Source of the DNA: Amphirosellinia nigrospora
Lineage: Eukaryota > Ascomycota > Sordariomycetes > Xylariales > Xylariaceae
Assembly: GCA_004123355.1 (NCBI GenBank)
Contig: SCHM01000003.1
Location: forward strand, 7,335,058 to 7,399,057
Direction of reading: 5' to 3'
DNA length: 64,000 nucleotides
In this document: in pieces, positions 1-26,193 of the stretch
How positions within the stretch are numbered: position 1 is the first letter of the stretch
How the letters are laid out: the number at the start of each line of letters is the position of its first letter
Made by a program: the position numbers and the translations under genes
Notes under the pieces: generated by a model
What the model was told of the DNA's origin: nothing
Database searches by the model: none
What the model saw: the letters and a program-made list of their open reading frames with translations, nothing else

Positions 1-779
1 TTAATATTAAAAAAATTTAAATAAATTTTATTAAAATTAACGTTATATTAAAATAAAAATTTTTATGTCGGTTAAAAACGTATAATTTTTTTTAAAATTT
101 TATAATTTTTATTAAAACTTTATTAATATTTAAAATTATATTATAGCGCTTTTAAACCGATTAATATAAAAAAACATACTTTTTAAATAAACTAAAAATA
201 TAAAAAGTTATTTTATTAGTTTAAAAAAGCTTTAATAAAATTTTTTTTATTAAAATATTTTAATTATAATTTATTAATAACTAAAGGCCTTTTAATTTAG
301 GGGCAAAAATACTTAAGTTTTTAAGAACTATATATTTAAATTAGTAAATAAGTTATAATTATTAGTTATATTAGTTCGCTCCTTTTTAATAAATTATATA
401 TAGTAAAACTTATTATTTTATTTTAATTTATTAACTATAATATTTTATTTTTTATATAATTATATAATTATATTATAAAAATATTCGGCTATTTAGTTAA
501 TAATAGCAATAAATTTGCTTATAAATATAAATTAATATATAATATTTTTTATATTTGTTTTATTAATAATAATAATATATACTAAAGTTATACTATTATT
601 TTATAATTAAATTATAATTTTAAACTATAAAATAAAATTAAAAAATTAAATATTATAACGAATAATTAATTTTTATTTTAAGTAAAAAAAACTTACCGTA
701 ATATTAAAATTTTAAAACGATTTTTAACTTAAATAAAATTAAAAAAGTTTTTTAATAAATATAAATTATTATTTTAAAT

Positions 780-860
780 TTTAAATATAATTACGAGCTA
801 TTTTTAATTTTAAATATAATTATAAACTATTTTTAATTTTAAATATAATTATAAATTTTT
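780..860. repeat. Tandem repeat of about 30 bp inside Helitron-like copy 1
   Basis: The motif TTTTTAATTTTAAATATAAT is repeated about three times at roughly 30-bp spacing. The same array is present at 28,275-28,345 and, inverted, at about 25,620-25,690 in the other short-form copies. Confidence 0.7.
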
Positions 861-919
861 ATTTTAAATAATAATGTTATTATAAAGTATATTAATTTTT
901 ATAACGTATTAAATTTTTA

Positions 920-1140
920 TTTTTTTCGAAAAAAGCTTAAGTTTGCTAATAAGTTTAAAAAAAACCTTATAAATTAGCTAAAACGTTTAAAAAAAAAAAA
1001 CTTTTTAAAAAAAGCTTAAGCTTATTAATAAGTTTAAAAAAAACTTTATAAGTTAATTAAAACGTTTAAAAAAAAAAACTTTTAAAAAAAACTTAAGCTT
1101 ATTAATAAATTTAAAAAAAACTTTATAAGCTAGCTAAAAT
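920..1140. repeat. Minisatellite of about 75-80 bp units, three copies
   Basis: Each unit contains AGCTTAAG..TTAATAAGTTTAAAAAAAAC, then TTATAA..TTAGCTAAAACGTTT and an A-run. Three units are visible here. The homologous short-form elements at about 28,425-28,580 and 25,440-25,560 (inverted) hold about two, so the array changed copy number between element copies. Confidence 0.7.
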
Positions 1141-1888
1141 ATATAAAAAAAAAAAACTCGAAAACTTAAAAAACGTATTTATTACGATTAATTTAAAGCT
1201 TTAAAGTTTTTAAAAACTTAAAAACTACGTTTAAAATATTATAATAAAAAATAAAAAAATAAGCAAAAAAAGTTATAAATAAACTTTATAAAAAATACTA
1301 CTATATTTATTATGTTAATATAATAGCTAATTTTATAATAATTATAGTTTTTTTAAAAAATAACTTAATAAAAATTATATTTAAGCAAAGTTTATAATAG
1401 TAATATTAGTTTATAATTTAAAAATAATAAATATTTAAATTAATATTAAATTAAAAAAAAAAAAAATAAAATAACTATAAATATAATTAAACAAATAATA
1501 TTAAATAATACGGTTAATATAATATATAATTATTAAATAATCGGGTTTAATAAAATATATAACTATTAAATAATTAAATTTAATATAAAATTAAATTTAG
1601 TATAACTTATAATAAAAAAAAAATTAAAAATAAAACTTTATAATTTATTTATATTATATTATTATTTTTAATATAAATATTTAATTTTAAATTATTTATT
1701 AAATTTATAGTTATTTATATAATAAAAAAAATATTAAAAATTAAATATATATAATAGTAAATAAAAACAAAAAAGTTTTAATTCGGGTAAAAGAATTTTT
1801 TATTTAAGATATAAAAAATAAAAAATTTTTTTATCGATAAAAAAACCTTTTTTTTATTTAGTTGTACTTTTTTTATAAAACTTAAGCA

Positions 1889-5126: not shown

Positions 5127-8100
5127 CTTTTTTTTTTTAAAAAAGACTTAACCTAAGTTTATTAATATATATAAAGCTTTAAAACTATAAGTTTGTTCGC
5201 TTATATATAAAAAATTAAATAATAAATTTTTAAAATTAATATTTTAAGCTAAAAAGTTTTTTTTAGTTTTTAATAGCTATAAAATTTATAAAGCTTTTAT
5301 ATTTCCGCTATATTATTAGCTATTTAAATAATCGATTATATAATAATTATACTATTTAATATATTTTATTATTTATTACGTAAGCTTTTTATTTTTTTTT
5401 ATATTTTTTATATATTTATTTTATAAGCTTATTATTATTTATATTTTATTATAAACTTATTTTTTTTTATAGCTTTTAATTAATTATTTAATTATAATAA
5501 TAATTTTATTATATTTAAGTTCGTTTTATAATATTTTTTTAGTTTTTTTATAAAGTTGTGCAAATTTATAGCTAAATATTATTTATTATTATATTTTTAA
5601 TTTTTTACGCTATTTTATAATATAATTTATAATAATAAATATATAAAAATAATATTTTTTAATTTTTATTTTTTTTTTCGAAACTAAAGTTTATTATTTT
5701 GTTTTTTAGTTGTTTATATTTTTAGCTTAATAAAAGGTTATTCGGGTATTTATATAAACGATTAATATAAACTATTTATTTTTGCGCTAGCTATTAAATA
5801 ATTATAATTAAAAAATATTAAAGTTATTTAGTTATATTTTTTCGATTTTATAATAATTTTTTGTTATAAAATAATTTAATTTATTATTAAAATAATTAGT
5901 TTGTTTACTTTTTTTATATAGTATATAAATATAGTTTTTAATAATAAAATTAAAATCTTTTTTATATTTATTAGCTTAAATAATTATTTTTTATTATGTT
6001 TTTTTATATTTTATTTAATAACTTTAATATATTTTTATATACGCTATATAAATACTTAGCTTTTTTTTTATTTAATTTTTTTTTAGTTAAATAATTAATT
6101 AGTTTTTTAGCTTTAAATTTTTAATTAAATATTATTTTTATTAATTAACTTATAAAAACTTTTTTAACGTTAAATTATTAAATAATTTATAAAATAAAAA
6201 TATTTATATTATATTTAAAATAAATAACGCTTTTAATTAATTTTTTTAAAAATAGCTTATAAAAAATTATAACTTTTAGTTTATTTATTAATATATAATT
6301 TTAATTTATTTAATAGTTTATTATATTTAATAAAAAAAAAGTTTAGTTTTATTTTATATATTTTAAAAAGTTTATTTATAAAATTAGCTATAAATTATAA
6401 CTTTTAATTATTTATAATAATTTTAACTATTTAAAACTTAATAAAAGCTTTAATAATATATTTCGGTTATTTTTTTAATAATAATTTTGTTTTTATATAT
6501 AATTGTTTAAAAAATCTTAATTAATTAATTAATAATATAAAAGTTATATTATTTTTATATTTATTTTTAAAAAACTTTTAAAATTAATAATAATATATTA
6601 TTAAAATATTTTAAAATTTTTAGCAAAATTAGTTTTTTAAAAGTTTTATCGCGTAAAACTTTAAACAGCTAGCAATAATAGTTTATAATATAGCGTTTAA
6701 TATTGCTATATAGCTTTAGCTATTAATATTTTTAAAAAAATATAGCGCGTTTTATTTTTATGCTTAAGTTTTATAAGGGAGGTATAACAAAGTAAAAGGA
6801 AGGTTTTTTTTGTTAATAAAAAAATTTTTTTATCCGGCTTTATATCTTAAATAAGAAATTCTTTTATTTTAATTAAAAACTATTTATTATTTAAACTTTT
6901 TTTTACTTTTTATGCTTAACGTATAATTTAATATTTAAAGTTTTATGTTTTACGTTTTTTATTTTTTATTTAATATTAATAACTTAGGCAACTTTTTAGA
7001 AAATATTTATTATTTATTTATAACTATTTATATATTTAATATTAAAAATAATATAAATTTAAAACTTATAACTTTATTATTATTAATTGCTAATTATTAA
7101 TTAGTTATTTAAGCTTTATTTAATTTATTTTATTTTAAAATTTTGTTTTATTTATATTTTATTTCGTTTTTTAAAGCTTTTTTTAAAAATTTATTTAAGC
7201 TTATTAGTATTATTTTTAGCTAAGTTTATTTTTTTAATAATAAATAATTTTTATTCGTTTTTAAGTATAATTTACTAATAATATTTTTTTTTTTTTTATT
7301 TATTTATTATTTTTTTTATATATTTTTTTCGTTTATAAATATTATTTATTTATTTTAAACTTTAGCCGCTAATTATATTTTTAGTTTTAACTATTTTATT
7401 ATAATATAAATATTTATTTATTTTATTATTATTATTATTTTAAATATTATTTTTTATTAAATAGTAATTTAATTTATTATATATATTAAACGTTATAACT
7501 AAATAACGGTTAAATAATTATATATTAATTAATAGTTTATTATATTTTATTTTTGTTTATTTTATTATTATATAGTTTATTATAATCGATTATTTTATAG
7601 TTAGTTTTATAATATAAATATTTCGAAAACTATAAAAAAAATTATTCGTAAATAATTTTTTAAATTATAAATTATATTTTATAACTAGGAATTTTTTTTT
7701 TCGAAAAAACTAACGTTTAATATTATAATTATATATTATAAAATATAATAAATAAAACTATTAATAATAAACCGTTAAAATCGAACAAAATATAGCTTAT
7801 ATTAATAAAACTATTATATAAAAACTTTATATAATATTATTAAAAAAATATAATATAAAATTATATAAAAGCTAAACTATATTATATAATATTTTTATAA
7901 TTATTAAATAGTTTTTTTTATTAATATTTTATATAAACTGCCGCTTATAAATATATTTTAAATTTAACGATTTTAATACTAGCTTATTAAATATAATAAT
8001 AAACTAAGTTTTAAAAGCCGCTATTTTATTTTTAACTTTATATATAAACAATAAACTAATAAAATAATATAAACTATTTAAAATATTATTATTTATTAAG

Positions 8101-11100
8101 CTATTTTATTTAGCAAAAATAGTTATTATTTTTATTTTATATTTAAAAAAAATTACCGAATATATATTATATTTAAAAACGTATAAAATATTTTTTTATT
8201 ATTATTAAATTTTATGTACTATTTATTTAAAATATTAAAAAATAAAAAAAAAATCGATTTTTTAAAAAAAAATAATATTTTTATATTTAATAAAAGCTTA
8301 AAAAAAATATAAATAAAAAATATAACTTTATTATATAATAATAATATATAAAAAAATTATTATAAAAAAATAAATATTATTTGCTAGTTATTATTTTATT
8401 AAAATATATTATTATTATAGCAAAAAAATCGAACAAATTTTATAATCTATTTATATAAACGATAATATAGCTTTAATATATATTATTACTATCGATAAAA
8501 CAAGCAAATATTATTAACGTAGTTACGCGGAAAAAAAGCTTTTATAAATTAAAACAAAACAATAAAGCGCGTTAAAAATAACTTGTTTAAAAAAACTACG
8601 CCGATATAGCCGGTAACCTTAATTTGCTAAAATATATTTATAAATCCTAAAAACTTAAGCTTTTTTACCCCTAACTTAAAAAGCCTCTAGTTTAAATATA
8701 TTATTATTAATTATATATAAGTTTTTTTAATTATATATTTTTAAATTATTTATTTTTAATATTATAAGTTTTTTTTTATATAAAATAAGTTTTTGTATAA
8801 ACTAATTAAAATATATATTAACGTAAGTTTAAGTTTAATATTTATTAAAACTAATATTTTTATAGTTAGCTGCTAAAATAATATCGATTAATATTATTTT
8901 TAATAATAATAGCAGTTCGAAGTTTTAAAAAGCATAAACTATTATATTTTTTAGTAATTATATATTTATAATAAACTTAAATAAAACTATTATTCGTTAT
9001 TTATTTCGGATTTATTTTTATATTTTTATATTTTTAAAATCGGGATAAAATATTTACTATAATATTTTTTAACTTTAATCGATATATAATTATAAATTAT
9101 ATTAAACAATTAATTCGGTTTATTTTATTTATTATAAGTTTAAAACTTTTTTCGTATTAAAATTTTTAATATAATATAATTAATAATTATAATAAAAAGC
9201 TTTTATTTTTAAAGCTTTATAAGTTTAACTTTTTAATATAAAAAGCTTTTTATAATAGTAAGTATTTTTTTATTAAAAATACTATAATTAAGCTTTTTTT
9301 TATAGCGTTTTTAAATAAAAAACGACCGGTTTTTAAAAATTATTAAAATTATCGCGTTATAATATATTTATAGCTATATTATCCAATATATCAGTTTTTA
9401 TATAAGTTTCCGATTTATATAAAAAATAAAAAATAAAAGTTAATATTAAAGCTTTTTTTAAAATATTAAAAGCTTATTAATATTATTTAATTTATATTAA
9501 GTTTACGCCCGTTATAATTAATTCGTTTAAAAGTTTAATAATATATTTATACTTTTTAATAAAACGTTTATAAAAGTTATAAAATTTTAAAAAAAGCGTA
9601 TTTTTTATAATATAGCTTTTTTATTTTAATTAATAATTATTAATATTAAATAATTTTTTTATTTTTTAATTAATTTTTATATTTTTATTTTTATAATAAA
9701 GTTTAAAAACTTAGTTTAAATAATAAAAAATTCGTATTTTTTTAAATTAGCTTATAGTTTAACTTTTTAAAAGCGGGTTAATATTTTATTTATAATATTT
9801 TATATTTTAGCTTATTATTAAAATAAATCAAAATATTATTAATATACGCATATAAAAAATATTTAAATATTTATTTAAATATTATTAATAAAGTGTTAAA
9901 ACGTTAATAATTTATTAATAAAACTAAATAATAATATTTTAAATTAATAAATATTATTATATATAAAAAATAATTAAACGTTTATTATTTTTTACGATAT
10001 AAATATAATAAAAAGCTTAATAAATATTAATTTTAATATAAACTTTAGTTTTAATTAATTAAAATAACGTTTTTTTTACTAATAATAAAAAATATCGATT
10101 TTTTTAAATAATATTATTTTATAATAGTTTACGTAAAACTATAATAATTTATTATTTTTTATAGCAAATAATACTAAAATAGCTTATAATATATTTATAA
10201 GTTCGATAAAATTTTTAAATAAGTTTTTTTATATATATTTTCGGTATATTTTCGTTTTATTTAATAATATTTTATAAAACGTTATATTTTAATAATTTTA
10301 GTTTTTTTTTAATTATAATTTTATAGTTTATTTTTAGTTATTAAAAAAAATTCGTTTAAAACTATTTTATTAAATATATTTAAATATTTATAATATTATT
10401 TAAATATTTTATAATAAGCTTTTTATATAATTTTATTTTATTTTTAATAATAGCTTGTTTTTTTTTTTATTAATAATTTTTTTAATTTTATATAATAAAA
10501 TAATTTATATATTATTATATTATCTTAGTATAAAATTACTATAAAAATAACACGTTAATAGTAGCAATTTATATTAATTTTTATTTATATTAACTAATAA
10601 CGTTTTTTTTTATAATATATAGTTTATACTTATTTTTAATAACTTTTTTAATTAGTTATTTATAATTTTTATATAAAACAAGCTTTATATAAATAGTTTA
10701 TAATTATTTTTATTTAAAACTTTTATTATACGATTAATTTTTTATTATATATAGTTATTTTTTATATTAAAATTAGCTTATAAAAGTTATAAAATCGTAA
10801 TAAATATTTTAAATAATAAGCTTTTAATAAAAACTTTTTTAAAAGTTTTTTAACTTTTTATTTTAATTTTATAATTTTATTATATAATTATTATTTTTAA
10901 ATATAAATTTTATATATTTTTCTAGCTTTTTAGCTTTTAAAAGTATATTTATAGCAAATTTTTATTTTATTTTTTTTATTTATAAAATATTTTTTTAAGT
11001 TTATTTTTAATAGTTAATAATAATAGTTATAGTTTTAAAGTAATATTAATAACTTTTTACGCGTAACGTTTTTAATTTAAATAATTATTATAATAACGTT

Positions 11101-12425: not shown

Positions 12426-12430
12426 ATATA
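12426..12430. repeat. Left target-site duplication ATATA
   Basis: ATATA directly precedes the first TGACACAG terminus. ATATA also directly follows the last CTGTGTCA terminus at 16,518-16,522. A 5-bp duplication is usual for LTR elements. The AT-rich context makes a chance match possible. Confidence 0.6.
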
Positions 12431-12656
12431 TGACACAGTCACGTACGGGGGCACTAGCCACGCAGTGGCTAGTGGGGCCCCGGGGCTGTGGCTCGTGGGC
12501 AGGGGCCCACGTGACCCCACGTGGCCCACTGCGTGGGACCCACCTGTGTAGATAGATCCGTGGCAGTGGCCTCCGGCCACCACCACCACTTACACATTAC
12601 CACACATCACCACACAATATGACATAGATTCCAGTACCCTCTGTAATCTTGTGTCA
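12431..12656 (+). repeat. LTR 1 of the TRIM-like composite
   Basis: Begins TGACACAGTCACGTACGGGG and ends CTTGTGTCA; 226 bp. It contains several CACGTG palindromes, a CA/AC-rich stretch and ACACAATATGACATAGATT near the end. Open frames seen here are by-products of GC-rich repeat sequence. Confidence 0.85.
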
Positions 12657-13012
12657 AGTGGTGCCTCTACTAGTAGATGGCTGGGACCAGGCCACTCCGA
12701 GTCATTACCCCCCAGCCCTGCGGCTTGTCCTTTTTTAAGTTATTCCTACGCTGATTCTCGTGGTCGAGAATGACTTTGTTGGTCTCCGGCAGTACGTACA
12801 AACGGCTGTTTGCAAATCCCACGCGCGGCGAATTCAGGTACTTAACCCTGGGCAATTTATACTTATATGTAGTTAGCGAATTTAGGTATTTAATTACGTA
12901 TTATTATTTTATATGCTGCTATTAATATTTGTTAACGCTATGTTACTGTTAATGTTTTAACTAATTAAATAAATATTTTTCGAATTATTTTATTTGCCAA
13001 GCGTTGTTTATA
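12657..13012 (+). repeat. Internal unit 1, left part, with primer-binding-site candidate
   Basis: Starts AGTGGTGCCTC two bases after the LTR (candidate PBS beginning TGGT). It matches 15,553-15,907 base for base apart from transitions, and is cut at 13,012/13,013 by the Helitron-like element. The last 170 bp or so are clearly more A+T-rich than the sister copy. Confidence 0.8.
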
Positions 13013-14933
13013 CTAAAGGCCTTTAAGTTAAGGGCAAAAAAAGCTTAAGTTTTTAGGATTTATAAGTATACTTTAGCAAGTTAGGGTTGCCGGCTATATT
13101 GGCGTAGTTTTTCCGAATAAGTTGCTTTTAATGCGCTTTATTGTTTTGTTTTAATTTATAGTAGCTTTTTTCCCGCATAATTATATAATAATATTTGCCC
13201 GCTTTATTAATAGTAATAATATATATTAAAGCTATATTATTATTTTATAAGTAAACTATAAAATTTGTTCGATTTTTTTATTATAATAATAATATATATT
13301 TTAATAAAATAATAACTAATAAATAATATTTAGTTTTTTTATAGTAATTTTTTTATATATTATTATTATATAATAAAGTTATGTTTTTATTTATATTTTT
13401 TTTTTAAGCTTTTGCTAAATATAGGAATATATTTTTTTTTTAAAAATTAATTTTTTTTTTTTTTTTTAATATTTTAAATAAATAATATAATAGAAATTTA
13501 ATAGTAACAAAATAAATATATCTTATATATTTTTAAATATAATATATATTTAGCAACTTTTTTTAAATATAAAATAAAAATAACGATTATTTTTATTAAA
13601 TAAAATAGCTTAATAAATAATTAATATTTTAATAGTTTATACTATTTTATTAGTTTATTATTTATATAAAGTTAAAAATAAATAGCGGCTTTTAAAACTT
13701 AGTTCGTTATTATATTTAATAAGCTAGTATTAAAATTATTAAATTCGGAATATATTTATAAGCGGTAATTTATATAAATATTAATAAAAAGAACTATTTA
13801 GCGTTATAAAAATATTATATAATATAGTTTAGCTTTTATATAATTTTTATTATATTTTTTAATAATATTATATAAAGCTTTTATATAACGGTTTTTATTA
13901 GTATAACTATATTTTGTTCGATTTTAACGGGTTTATTATTAATAGTTTTATTGTTATATTTTTATAATATATAACTATAATATTAAACATTAGTTTTTTT
14001 AAAAAAAAAATTCCTAGTTATAAAATATAACTTTATAACTTAAAAAATTATTTATAAATAATTTTTTTTATAGTTTTCGAAATATTTATATTATAAAACT
14101 AATTATAAAATAATTAATTATAATAAACTATATAATAAAATAAACAAAAATAAAATATAATAAACTATTAATTAATATATAATTATTTAGCTATTATTTA
14201 GTTATAACGTTTAATATATATAATAAATTAAATTATTATTTAATAAAAAATAATATTTAAAATAATAATAATAAAATAAATAAATATTTATTATATAAAA
14301 TAATTAAAACTAAAAATATAATTAGCGGTTAAAGTTCGTAAATAAATAAATAATATTTATAAACGAAAAAAAATATACGAAAAAAATAACAAATAAATAA
14401 AAAAAAAATAAATATTTACTAATAAGTTATATTAAAAACGAATAAAATTATTTACTATCGAAAAAATAAACTCGGCTAAAAATAATACTAATAAGCTTAA
14501 ATAAATTTTTAAAAAAACTTTAAAAAGCAAAATAAAATATAAATAAAATAAAACTTCGGAATAAAATAAATTAAATAAAGCTTAAATAGCTAATTAGCAA
14601 TTAATAATTAATAATAATAAAGTTATAAGTTTTAAATCTATATTATTTTTAATATTAAAATATATAAATAGTTATAAATAAATAAATAAATTTTTTTAAA
14701 AATTGCCCGAATTATTAATATTAAATAAAAAATAAAAAACGTAAAATATAAAACTTTAAATATTAAATTATATATTAAGCATAAAAAATAAAAAAAGCCT
14801 TAAATAATAAAGTAGTTTTTAATTAAAGTAAAAGAATTTCTTATTTAAAATATAAAACCGGATAAAAAAAATTTTTTATCGATAAAAAAAACCTTTTTTT
14901 TATTTAGTTATACTTTTTTATAAAACTTAAACA
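13013..14933 (-). mobile_element. Helitron/Helentron-like non-autonomous element, long form (copy 3), inside the TRIM-like unit
   Basis: The left end CTAAAGGCC carries a hairpin at 13,019-13,035 (GCCTTTAA / TTAAGGGC), followed by a subterminal AGCTTAAGTTTTT. The right end is TATAAAACTTAAACA. The uninterrupted sister unit (around 15,905) reads GTTTATATAGTCG. Here GTTTATA precedes and TAATTA (TAGTCG after C-to-T/G-to-A change) follows the element, so it inserted between A and T with no or at most a one-base duplication. That rules out an LTR or Tc1/mariner mechanism and fits a Helitron: minus-strand 3' end = hairpin, CT, CTAG, then T. Confidence 0.78.
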
Positions 14934-15328
14934 TAATTAAAACGTTTAAAGTACGCTATATTACAACTATATAAAAAAACTATTTAAATAAGCTGTTCGG
15001 GATTTTAAATAGTATATATAATATTTTAACAACATTTTCGCTAGCATTTTATTACTTTTTTATATTTTAACCTTGGCAGACCTACGTGCCTTTATATAGA
15101 CTTGCAGACCCCTATAGACCTACGTACCCTTATGCAGACCTACAGACCCTACAGATCTACGCGGACCTACGCGGACCTACAGATCTGCAGACCCCTGTAG
15201 ACCCCTACGGACCTACAGACCCCTGCAAAAGCAATGGCGAATATGGTGGATCTGGGGACCTGCGTGGCTAGGGCTGTAGCTAGGGCTAGGCTATTGAGGT
15301 CAATAAATTTTGCTGTGTGTGCGGCACT
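14934..15328 (+). repeat. Internal unit 1, right part
   Basis: Matches 15,908-16,300. The first 130 bp or so next to the Helitron-like copy are heavily C-to-T/G-to-A altered. From CCTTGGCAGACCTACG onward it is nearly identical to the sister. It includes a degenerate minisatellite built from CAGACCTAC and CAGACCCCT units (about 15,075-15,230). Small open frames here repeat DPY/ADLQT-like peptides and are products of the minisatellite, not a recognisable protein. Confidence 0.8.
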
Positions 15329-15552
15329 TGACACAGTCACGTACGGGGGCACTAGCCACGCAGTGGCTAATGGGGCCCCGGGCTGTGGCTCGTGGGCAAG
15401 GGCCCACGTAACCCCACGTGACCCCACGTGACCCCACGTGGACCCACCTGTGTATATAGATCTGTGGCAGTGGCCTACGGCCACCACTACCACTTACACA
15501 GAACCACACAATATGACATAGATTACAGCATACCCTCTGTGATCCTGTGTCA
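15329..15552 (+). repeat. LTR 2 (shared middle LTR)
   Basis: Starts TGACACAGTCACG and ends ATCCTGTGTCA; 224 bp. It is preceded by internal-end sequence (TGTGCGGCACT) and followed by internal-start sequence (AGTGGTGCC), so it serves both as 3' LTR of unit 1 and 5' LTR of unit 2. Confidence 0.85.
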
Positions 15553-16300
15553 AGTGGTGCCTCCACTAGTAGATGGCTGGGACCAGCCACTCCGAGTCAC
15601 CTACCCCCGAGCCCTGCGGCTTGTCCTTTAAGTCGGTTCTTGCGATTAATTCTTGCGGTTGAGAATGATTTTGTTGCTTTCCGGTAGTACAAACGGCTGT
15701 TTGTAAATCTTACGCGCGGCGAATTTAGGTACTTAACCCTAGGCAATTTGCACTTGTACGTAGTTGGCGAATTTAGGTACCCGACTACGTATTATTATTT
15801 TACGCTACTGCTGTTAACGCCCCGTTAACGCTACGTTGCTATTAACGTTCCGACTAATTAAATAAACATTTTTTGAATTTTTTATTTGTTTAAGCGCTGT
15901 TTATATAGTCGAAACGTTTAAAGTACGCTATACTACGGCTATATAAAAAAACTGTTCGAATAAGCCGTTCGGGATCTTAAACAGTACAATATAATATTTT
16001 GACGACGTTTTTACTAGTATTTCGTTACCCCTTTATACCTCGACCTTGGCAGACCTACGTGCCCTTACACAGACCTGCAGACCCCTATAGACCTACGTAC
16101 CCCTACGCAGACCTACAGACCCCACAGATCTACGCGGACCTACGCGGACCTACAGATCTACAGACCCCTGCAGACCCCTACGGACCTACAGACCCCTGCA
16201 GAGGCAATGGCGAATATAGTGGATCTGGGACCTGCGTGGCTAGGGCTGTGGCTAGGGCTAGGCTATTGAGGTCAATAGATTTTGCTGTGTGTGCGGCACT
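15553..16300 (+). repeat. Internal unit 2 (uninterrupted, 748 bp)
   Basis: Reads from the PBS-like AGTGGTGCCTCCACTAG through GTTTATATAGTCG (the empty Helitron site near 15,905) to the CAGACCTAC/CAGACCCCT minisatellite and TGTGTGTGCGGCACT. No gag, protease or polymerase motif is visible, and no clear polypurine tract precedes the LTR. Confidence 0.82.
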
Positions 16301-16517
16301 TGACACAGTCACGTACGGGGGGCACTAGCCACGCAGTGGCTAGTGGGGCCCCCGGGGTGGCTCGTGGGCAGGGCCCACGTGACCCCATGTGACCCACTCC
16401 GTGGTCCCACCTGTGTATATAGATCCGTGGCAGTGGCCTACGGCCACAACCACCACTTTTACTTACACATCACACATAATATAACATAGATTCTAGCAGC
16501 CCTAGAATCCTGTGTCA
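16301..16517 (+). repeat. LTR 3 of the TRIM-like composite
   Basis: Starts TGACACAGTCACG and ends AATCCTGTGTCA; 217 bp. It is followed by ATATA and then AT-rich Gypsy remnant. Confidence 0.85.
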
Positions 16518-16522
16518 ATATA
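16518..16522. repeat. Right target-site duplication ATATA
   Basis: Partner of 12,426-12,430. Confidence 0.6.
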
Positions 16523-24662: not shown

Positions 24663-26193
24663 TGCTTAAGTTTTATAAAAAAGTATAACTAAATAAAAAA
24701 AAGTTTTTTTATTAATAAAAAATTTTTTGTTTTTTATATCTTAAATAAAAAATTTTTTTACCCGAATTAAAAACTTTTATTTTTACTTACTATTATATAT
24801 ATTTAGTTTTTAATATTTATTTTTTATTATATAAATAATTATAAATTTAATAAAATAATTTAAAGTTAAATATTTATATTAAAAATAATAATATAATATA
24901 AATAAATTATAAGGTTTTATTTTTAATTTTTTTTTATTATAAATTATACTAAATTTAATTTTATATTAAATTTAATTATTTAATAGTTATACGTTTTATT
25001 AAACCCGATTATTTAATAATTATATGTTATATTAAACGCGATTATTTAATATTATTTGTTTAATTATATTTATAGTTATTTTATTTTTTTATTTTTTAAT
25101 TTAATATTAATTTAAATATTTATTATTTTAAGTTATAAACTAGTACTATTATTATAAACTTTATTTAAATATAATTTTTATTAAACTATTTTTTAAAAAA
25201 CTATAATTATTTAAAATTAGCTATTATATTAGCGTAATAAATATAGCAGTATTTTTTATAAAATGTTCGTTTATAACTTTTTTTATTTATTTTTTTATTT
25301 TTTATTATAATGTTTTAAACGTAGTTTTTAAGTTTCCGAAAACTTTAAAGCTTTAGATTGATTATAATAAACGCGTTTTTTAAGTTTTTGAGTTTTTTTT
25401 TTTTAAACGTTTTAGCTAGCTTATAAAGTTTTTTTAAATTTATTAATAAGTTTAAGTTTTTTCGAAAAGTTTTTTTTTTTAAACGTTTTAGCTAATTTAT
25501 AAAGTTTTTTTTAAATTTATTAATAAGCTTAAGCTTTTTTTAAAAAAAAAATAAAATTTAATACGTTATAAAAATTAATATATTTTATAATAGCGCTATT
25601 ACTTAAAATATAAAATTCGTAATCGTATTTAAAATTAAAAATAGCTTATAATTATATTTAAAATTAAAAATAGCTTATAGTTATATTTAAAATTAAAAAT
25701 AATAACTTATACTTATTAAAAAACTTTTTTAATCTTATTTAGGTTAAAAATCGTTTTAAAAATTTTAATATTATAATAAGTTTTTTTTACTTAAAAAAAA
25801 ATTAATTATTCGCTATAATATTTAATTCTTTAATTTTACTTTATAGCTTAAAATTATAGTTTAATTATAAAATAATAGTATAATTTTAATATATATTATT
25901 ACTATTAATAAAGCAAATATATAAAAATACTATATATTAACGTTTATACTTATAAGCAAATTTATTACTACTATTAACTAAACGGCCGAATGTTTTTATA
26001 ACGTAATTACGTAGTTACATAAAAAAACAAAATACTATAGTTAATAAATCAAAATAAAATAATAAGTTTTACTATATATAATTATTAAGAAAAAACGAAC
26101 TAATATAACTAATAACTACAACTTATTTATTAACTTAAATACGTAATTCCTAAAAACTCAAGCATTTTTGCCCTTAAATTAAAAGGCCTCTAG
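24663..26193 (+). mobile_element. Helitron/Helentron-like non-autonomous element, short form (copy 4)
   Basis: Starts TGCTTAAGTTTTATAAAAAA and ends TTAAAAGGCCTCTAG followed by T. Just before the end it carries CCTAAAAACTCAAGCATTTTT and the CCCTTAAATTAAAAGG hairpin, the best preserved CTAG terminus in the family. It is homologous (inverted) to copies at 281-1,888 and 27,778-29,313. Confidence 0.75.

Follow-up and report, generated by a model that had tools for sequence, protein, structure and literature searches.

The window analysed here, a stretch of 64,000 nucleotides from the Amphirosellinia nigrospora genome, has a GC content of 4-16% in most 1-kb bins of its left 38 kb; one protein encoded at 49,944-51,023 matches Xylaria longipes and X. 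acuta proteins at 93% identity. Positions 12,426-16,522 form a tandem LTR-internal-LTR-internal-LTR array, TRIM-like, with ATATA at both outer flanks, which fits the TRIM-like composite host that had been proposed in the initial annotation of this DNA. Internal unit 1 of the array is split by a 1,921-bp element, which we refer to as a family A element, and copies of the same family and of a sister family, B, lie elsewhere in the window. The features are as follows.

281..1888, minus strand: family B copy (boundary corrected by one base)
6761..8690, plus strand: the window's other full-length family A copy, ending CTCTAG, then T
12,426-12,430 and 16,518-16,522: ATATA on the outer sides of the host repeat
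12431..12656, unstranded: host repeat, LTR-like copy 1
13013..14933, minus strand: family A element, non-autonomous, 1,921 bp, with its 5' end at 14,933 and its 3' end at 13,013, from the alignment of copies
13013..13018, minus strand: 3' terminus CTTTAG, then T
13019..13035, minus strand: 3' hairpin GCCCTTAACTTAAAGGC
13043..13053, minus strand: inverted repeat of the 5' end in subterminal position, AAAACTTAAGC, 30 bp from the 3' end
14922..14933, minus strand: 5' terminus TGTTTAAGTTTT (TGCTTGAGTTTT in less mutated copies)
15329..15552, unstranded: host repeat, LTR-like copy 2
15905..15906, unstranded: empty site in internal unit 2, TTTATA before and TAGTCG after the junction, uninterrupted in 11 other genomic paralogues too
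16301..16517, unstranded: host repeat, LTR-like copy 3
24663..26193, plus strand: family B copy, with an empty-site paralogue in locus L022
27778..29313, minus strand: family B copy, with an empty-site paralogue in locus L033 (boundary corrected by two bases)

We aligned 14 family A copies, including the window copy. Allowing for RIP-type changes and small indels, the 3' end is common to all 14 copies and the 5' end to 13, confirming that the boundaries first assigned to the element, 13,013-14,933, are exact. The 5' end had been described as TG(C/T)TTAAG, not TC. The TG is borne out: among 43 tabulated 5' ends, chosen by similarity to this end and with L021 left out, 39 begin with TG, four with TA (a RIP-type variant) and none with TC. 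The longer motif needs correction: the window copy starts with TGTTTAAG and most copies with TGCTT(A/G)AG. Locus L021 (C2:7,400-11,400) holds a family A copy that deviates from the others in its first ~10 bp and may have an alternative 5' end.

The 5' terminus, over 11-12 bp, recurs in inverted orientation ~30 bp ahead of the 3' end, forming an asymmetric terminal inverted repeat. The repeat is 11 bp long in family A, and in L041, a little-mutated family B copy on contig C9, TGCTTGAGTTTT has an exact inverted copy of 12 bp. The inverted copy that the initial annotation had placed before the hairpin is indeed present in the window element as AAAACTTAAGC; it has one RIP-type mismatch to the window copy's own 5' end because that end, TGTTTAAG, departs from the TGCTT(A/G)AG of the majority.

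At its 3' end, L041 has a 6-bp stem, GCCCCT/AGGGGC, followed by CTCTAG, and the spacing between hairpin and CTAG is 2 nt. The minus-strand 3' end had been read as a hairpin, CT, CTAG and then T; the hairpin and the T hold, whereas the window copy reads CTTTAG and its hairpin contains one mismatch. CTCTAG occurs in 15 of the 45 tabulated 3' ends, and CTAG is kept in 1/15 ends of family A, 13/27 of family B and 1/3 of family C. The remainder read TTAG or TTAA, which we take as C-to-T and G-to-A (RIP) changes of CTAG. Five or six of the six hairpin pairs are kept at 28 of the 45 ends, and four or fewer at 17, with pairs scored at a fixed offset, such that ends bearing indels or with misplaced boundaries score low. 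When two 3' ends were folded and compared with shuffled sequences, the family A end was no more stable than the shuffles (z -0.3) and the L041 end reached a z of only -1.8. No 5' hairpin was seen in the first 43 nt of L041, the one copy folded (0 kcal/mol).

Internal unit 2 had been proposed to preserve the pre-insertion sequence. A genome search with this unit retrieved 11 places in addition to units 1 and 2, all 11 of them uninterrupted, with (G/A)TTT(A/G)TA before the junction and TA after it; one of them, L051, has an extra A just beyond. The joined flanks of unit 1 match these empty sites without any added base, in agreement with the exact join, with no duplication or at most one T, that had been claimed. 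A one-base T duplication is indistinguishable from none because the element begins with T and T follows it.

We extended this comparison to 18 insertions (15 of family A and 3 of family B), joining their flanks by script and comparing them with retrieved genome DNA in a stricter empty-site search, a low-stringency version having been swamped by AT-rich background. A credible paralogous empty site was found for 10 of the 18, namely eight of family A (the window copy, L013, L017, L018, L020, L022, L023 and L024) and two of family B (at 24,663 and 29,313). None of the 10 has a target duplication; a constant duplication is what the initial annotation had said would speak against a Helitron. Close to the junction, L018, L020, the 24,663 copy and the second paralogues of L017 and L023 show small indels; the extra ATA in L020 is on one side only and hence was not counted as a duplication. 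The other eight insertions had no usable paralogue: none at all for L012, L016, L025 and the 6,761 copy; short matches only for L021, whose 5' boundary is a guess; and nothing beyond their own flank and other elements for L015, L019 and the 1,888 copy.

T directly follows the 3' end in all 45 tabulated cases (15/15 in family A and 27/27 in family B), counted after the boundaries of two family B copies in the window were corrected by one and two bases. At the L024 site, both paralogues carry C rather than T after the junction, and C-to-T mutation may therefore account for part of the T rule. The base before the 5' end is A in 13 of 14 family A copies and G in the other, at a dimer junction; it is A in 13, T in 12 and G in 2 of the 27 family B copies, and A in one and T in one of family C. 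Of 43 copies, 13 have T at both flanks, and no family A copy is among these. Insertion between A and T is therefore a trait of family A and not a general one.

Searches of the genome (48.1 Mb in 11 contigs), in which the best 40 candidates were scored and which give copy numbers as lower bounds, revealed at least 13 other near full-length family A copies with 88-90% identity, plus partial copies. One further copy, L025, is interrupted by an insert of ~800 bp. Variable columns of the 14-copy alignment are dominated by C/T (244) and A/G (235) differences, compared with 72 A/T columns. Across the 14 copies, 98 cells in 1,626 gap-free columns are transversions, or ~0.4% per site per family A copy, indicating that divergence within the family consists mostly of RIP-type transitions. 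CA is also scarce in the first 12 kb of the window (CA 53 vs CT 320), as expected of RIP, and from this pattern of base changes we infer that the process is RIP. The longest stop-to-stop frame among the 14 copies has 63 codons, and family A copies are thus non-coding as they stand; an old coding sequence may be hidden by RIP. Little-mutated copies of families B and C lie on the small contigs C9 (1.33 Mb; L041) and C11 (0.25 Mb; L127), where RIP may be weaker.

Family A is one of three non-coding families that share their ends and differ inside: A (1.92 kb), B (~1.55 kb) and C (~2.4 kb). Family B ranges over ~1.53-1.61 kb among 27 copies examined with their flanks (24 fetched and 3 in the window). 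A family B copy at C1:10,557,400 is surrounded by DNA of normal GC content. Family C measures ~2.41-2.46 kb in two copies, and five 5' starts group with it. The shared 5' end occurs well beyond family A: a 29-base pattern of this end, allowing at most one mismatch, has 129 matches genome-wide, against none for the reversed control. In BLAST comparisons, the families matched one another over ~460-980 bp on the 5' side and over 50-760 bp on the 3' side; identity was mostly 66-69%, and 86% between A and B over the last 51 bp. Unrelated DNA at 10% GC aligns at ~65% identity; hence, similarity among A, B and C beyond the terminal stretches is uncertain, and the longer, weaker matches may be overstated. 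Six loci (L035, L036, L040, L043, L106 and L113) hold fragments that start exactly at TGCTT and run for ~30 to 300 bp before unrelated DNA of normal GC content; they were found with the 5'-end pattern, and their anchoring at that end is partly a matter of ascertainment.

Two family A copies, L015 and L019, begin precisely at the end of a family C sequence, of which ~1 kb lies upstream in both, forming exact head-to-tail C-A dimers. Their 3' flanks differ between the two loci, and L015 is followed downstream by reversed family B sequence. Either a 3' terminator was read through or one element inserted beside the 3' end of another; the dimers fit both.

The initial annotation had also looked to an autonomous Rep-helicase partner. 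No such element with these ends was found in genome searches with profiles PF14214 and PF05970. PF14214 had no match in this genome and was equally silent in all 14 control genomes; PF05970 had three matches at two loci, with no Rep part in the frames seen, and from their frames these loci appear to be host Pif1-type genes. The absence of a Rep-helicase gene is weak evidence because RIP destroys coding sequence. Similarly, a DDE_1 search of the genome gave only four matches, located on C9 and C10, suggesting that such searches largely miss mutated transposase genes. Long stretches from two family C starts were considered as an autonomous source and set aside, the elements being only ~2.4 kb long. 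Pfam gave no match for four frames of the C11 family C copy or for a single frame of L041, and Rfam returned nothing in L041, L127 or L128.

Based on these observations, we conclude that the window insert is very probably a non-autonomous Helitron-type (rolling-circle) transposon. The Helitron-like assignment made at the outset is well supported, by the absence of target duplication at 10 of 10 insertions with an empty site, the T after 45 of 45 3' ends, the 3' hairpin, CTYTAG, the inverted copy of the 5' end and the head-to-tail dimers. The end structure, the copies and the empty sites are direct observations; the rolling-circle mechanism, a Rep-helicase acting in trans and the subgroup are what we infer from them. 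A Rep-helicase would have been supplied by an element that has since disappeared or been destroyed by RIP; it would nick at the 5' TG end and peel off one strand, release of the strand would stop at the hairpin/CTAG end, and the strand would be inserted beside a T, with no staggered cutting. C-A dimers would arise when a 3' end was now and then read through, and amplification would have come first, with RIP mutating most copies later.

Within the Helitron explanation, a finer reading is that the families belong to the Helitron2/Helentron branch, or to a proto-Helentron as in Phytophthora, and have retained canonical-looking 3' ends; we consider the chances of this to be about even. In favour of the branch, the 5' end is repeated in inverted orientation ~30 bp short of the 3' end, an arrangement also described for Helitron2 and FoHeli elements in the portion of PMC5148889 available to us, and proto-Helentron-Pi, in the available text of PMC4067079, has a 3' CTAG and inserts between A and T. 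On the other hand, the one copy folded is without a 5' hairpin, T lies on both sides in only 13 of 43 copies, and no protein was found that could be placed in a tree. The Helentron/Helitron2 placement suggested initially thus has partial support: it agrees with the subterminal inverted repeat, but not with the CTAG, the insertion of family A between A and T, or the missing 5' hairpin, and the autonomous Rep-helicase element did not turn up.

It is highly improbable that the elements are MITE-like derivatives of a cut-and-paste DDE transposon, although the region is TA-rich and a DDE_1 gene follows one 5' end. At that locus, L040 (C9:391,349-393,848), frames of a pogo-type gene start ~0.4 kb downstream of the element 5' end, and the DDE_1 part, ~1.3 kb downstream of it, contains a stop codon. 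We rejected this gene as a partner: no inverted repeat pairs with the element end, and only one of the four DDE_1 matches shows the association, the other three not being beside any 5' end listed (for C9 and C10 the stricter of two lists, the other one, with 100 of the 129 places, ending before C9). Moreover, the elements lack inverted repeats at both termini, the inverted copy being subterminal and at one end only, and their empty sites show no duplication of TA or any other sequence. A DDE relative, which would have counted against a Helitron in the initial annotation, thus did not emerge.

Read on the other strand, the families could be taken for non-LTR/SINE-type elements with a fixed TGCTT end and variable truncation at the opposite one, as the several short fragments beginning exactly at TGCTT might suggest. 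We regard this as very unlikely: those fragments were recovered with a pattern for that very end, and the little-mutated 3' end on C11 belongs to a family C copy that lacks ~311 bp of its 5' side and is thus anchored at the opposite end. In addition, there is no poly-A tail, full-length copies have two precise ends, and target duplications are absent from the empty sites. Finally, the notion that units 1 and 2 differ through a deletion or recombination artefact within the tandem repeat, for which a tandem array in AT-rich, mutated sequence might seem a suitable setting, is refuted by the uninterrupted state of unit 2 and 11 paralogues and by the presence of the insert elsewhere with the same ends.

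Returning to the Helitron-type reading, we put forward tentatively, as a possibility we would not yet favour, a fungal rolling-circle lineage with hybrid ends that bridges both groups, combining a Helitron2-type inverted repeat with a Helitron1-type hairpin-CTAG terminator and a target between A and T, and having spread as three or more chimeric non-autonomous families, their autonomous source erased by RIP. Occurring in an ascomycete that shows RIP-like mutation, the families offer ends, empty sites and dimers that could show how the two Helitron end types relate and how a family persists after loss of its source gene.

Canonical Helitrons (Helitron1) have a 5' TC, a 3' CTRR and a hairpin shortly before the 3' end, and insert between A and T. 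Helitron2 and Helentron elements have an asymmetric terminal inverted repeat and a 5' hairpin as well, and insert in TT or between TTTT and T/C; in Helentrons, an AP endonuclease is fused to the Rep-helicase. The ends described here are a mosaic of the two. They resemble Helitron1 in the 3' CTRR and 3' hairpin, and in the insertion of family A between A and T, but have a 5' TG rather than TC; they resemble Helitron2/Helentrons in the asymmetric terminal inverted repeat, but are without a 5' hairpin (in the one copy folded), and a TT or TTTT-T/C target is not general among them. The 2-nt spacing between hairpin and CTAG is shorter than in published Helitron descriptions, as far as these were accessible.

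Among individual elements, proto-Helentron-Pi of Phytophthora infestans has a Helitron-like structure but differs in its 5' TT, its length of ~14 kb and its coding capacity, and the available description mentions no inverted copy of its own 5' end (PMC4067079). Non-autonomous Helentrons (HINE/DINE-1) have a T-rich target, and the same partial source describes no CTAG terminus for them; the HINE repeat is set 2-4 nt in from the 5' end, whereas here it is the very end (PMC4067079). Some HINE copies have internal tandem repeats (PMC4067079, in part), as does L041, with periods of 17, 29, 33 and 79 bp. According to the accessible text of PMC5148889, Fusarium Helitrons carry asymmetric terminal inverted repeats, and FoHeli3-5 of Fusarium oxysporum, likewise in an ascomycete host, share the 5' TGC start and, close to the 3' end, an inverted repeat of 13-16 bp. 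Unlike the present families, they end in CTCCTGT, have a degenerate 5' hairpin and none at the 3' end, and are ~9-11 kb long with a known Rep-helicase; the Fusarium non-autonomous elements derive from FoHeli1, not FoHeli3-5 (PMC5148889, same portion). Circles with joined ends are reported for FoHeli1 (PMC5148889). That text also states that most Helitron-finding software depends on Helitron1 ends and misses Helitron2 (PMC5148889). HELPO1 and HELPO2 of Pleurotus ostreatus share the T[C/G] 5' end, the CTRR 3' end, AT insertion and the subterminal hairpin, but have a known coding Rep-helicase, and an inverted copy of the 5' end is not mentioned in the part of the description available (PMC4289320). 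The exact combination of end features was not found, by description, in searches of an open-access library. With TG, CTRR and AT targeting already reported in Pleurotus, the TG 5' end is not new by itself, and we regard the families as a mosaic variant of known Helitrons and not as a new kind.
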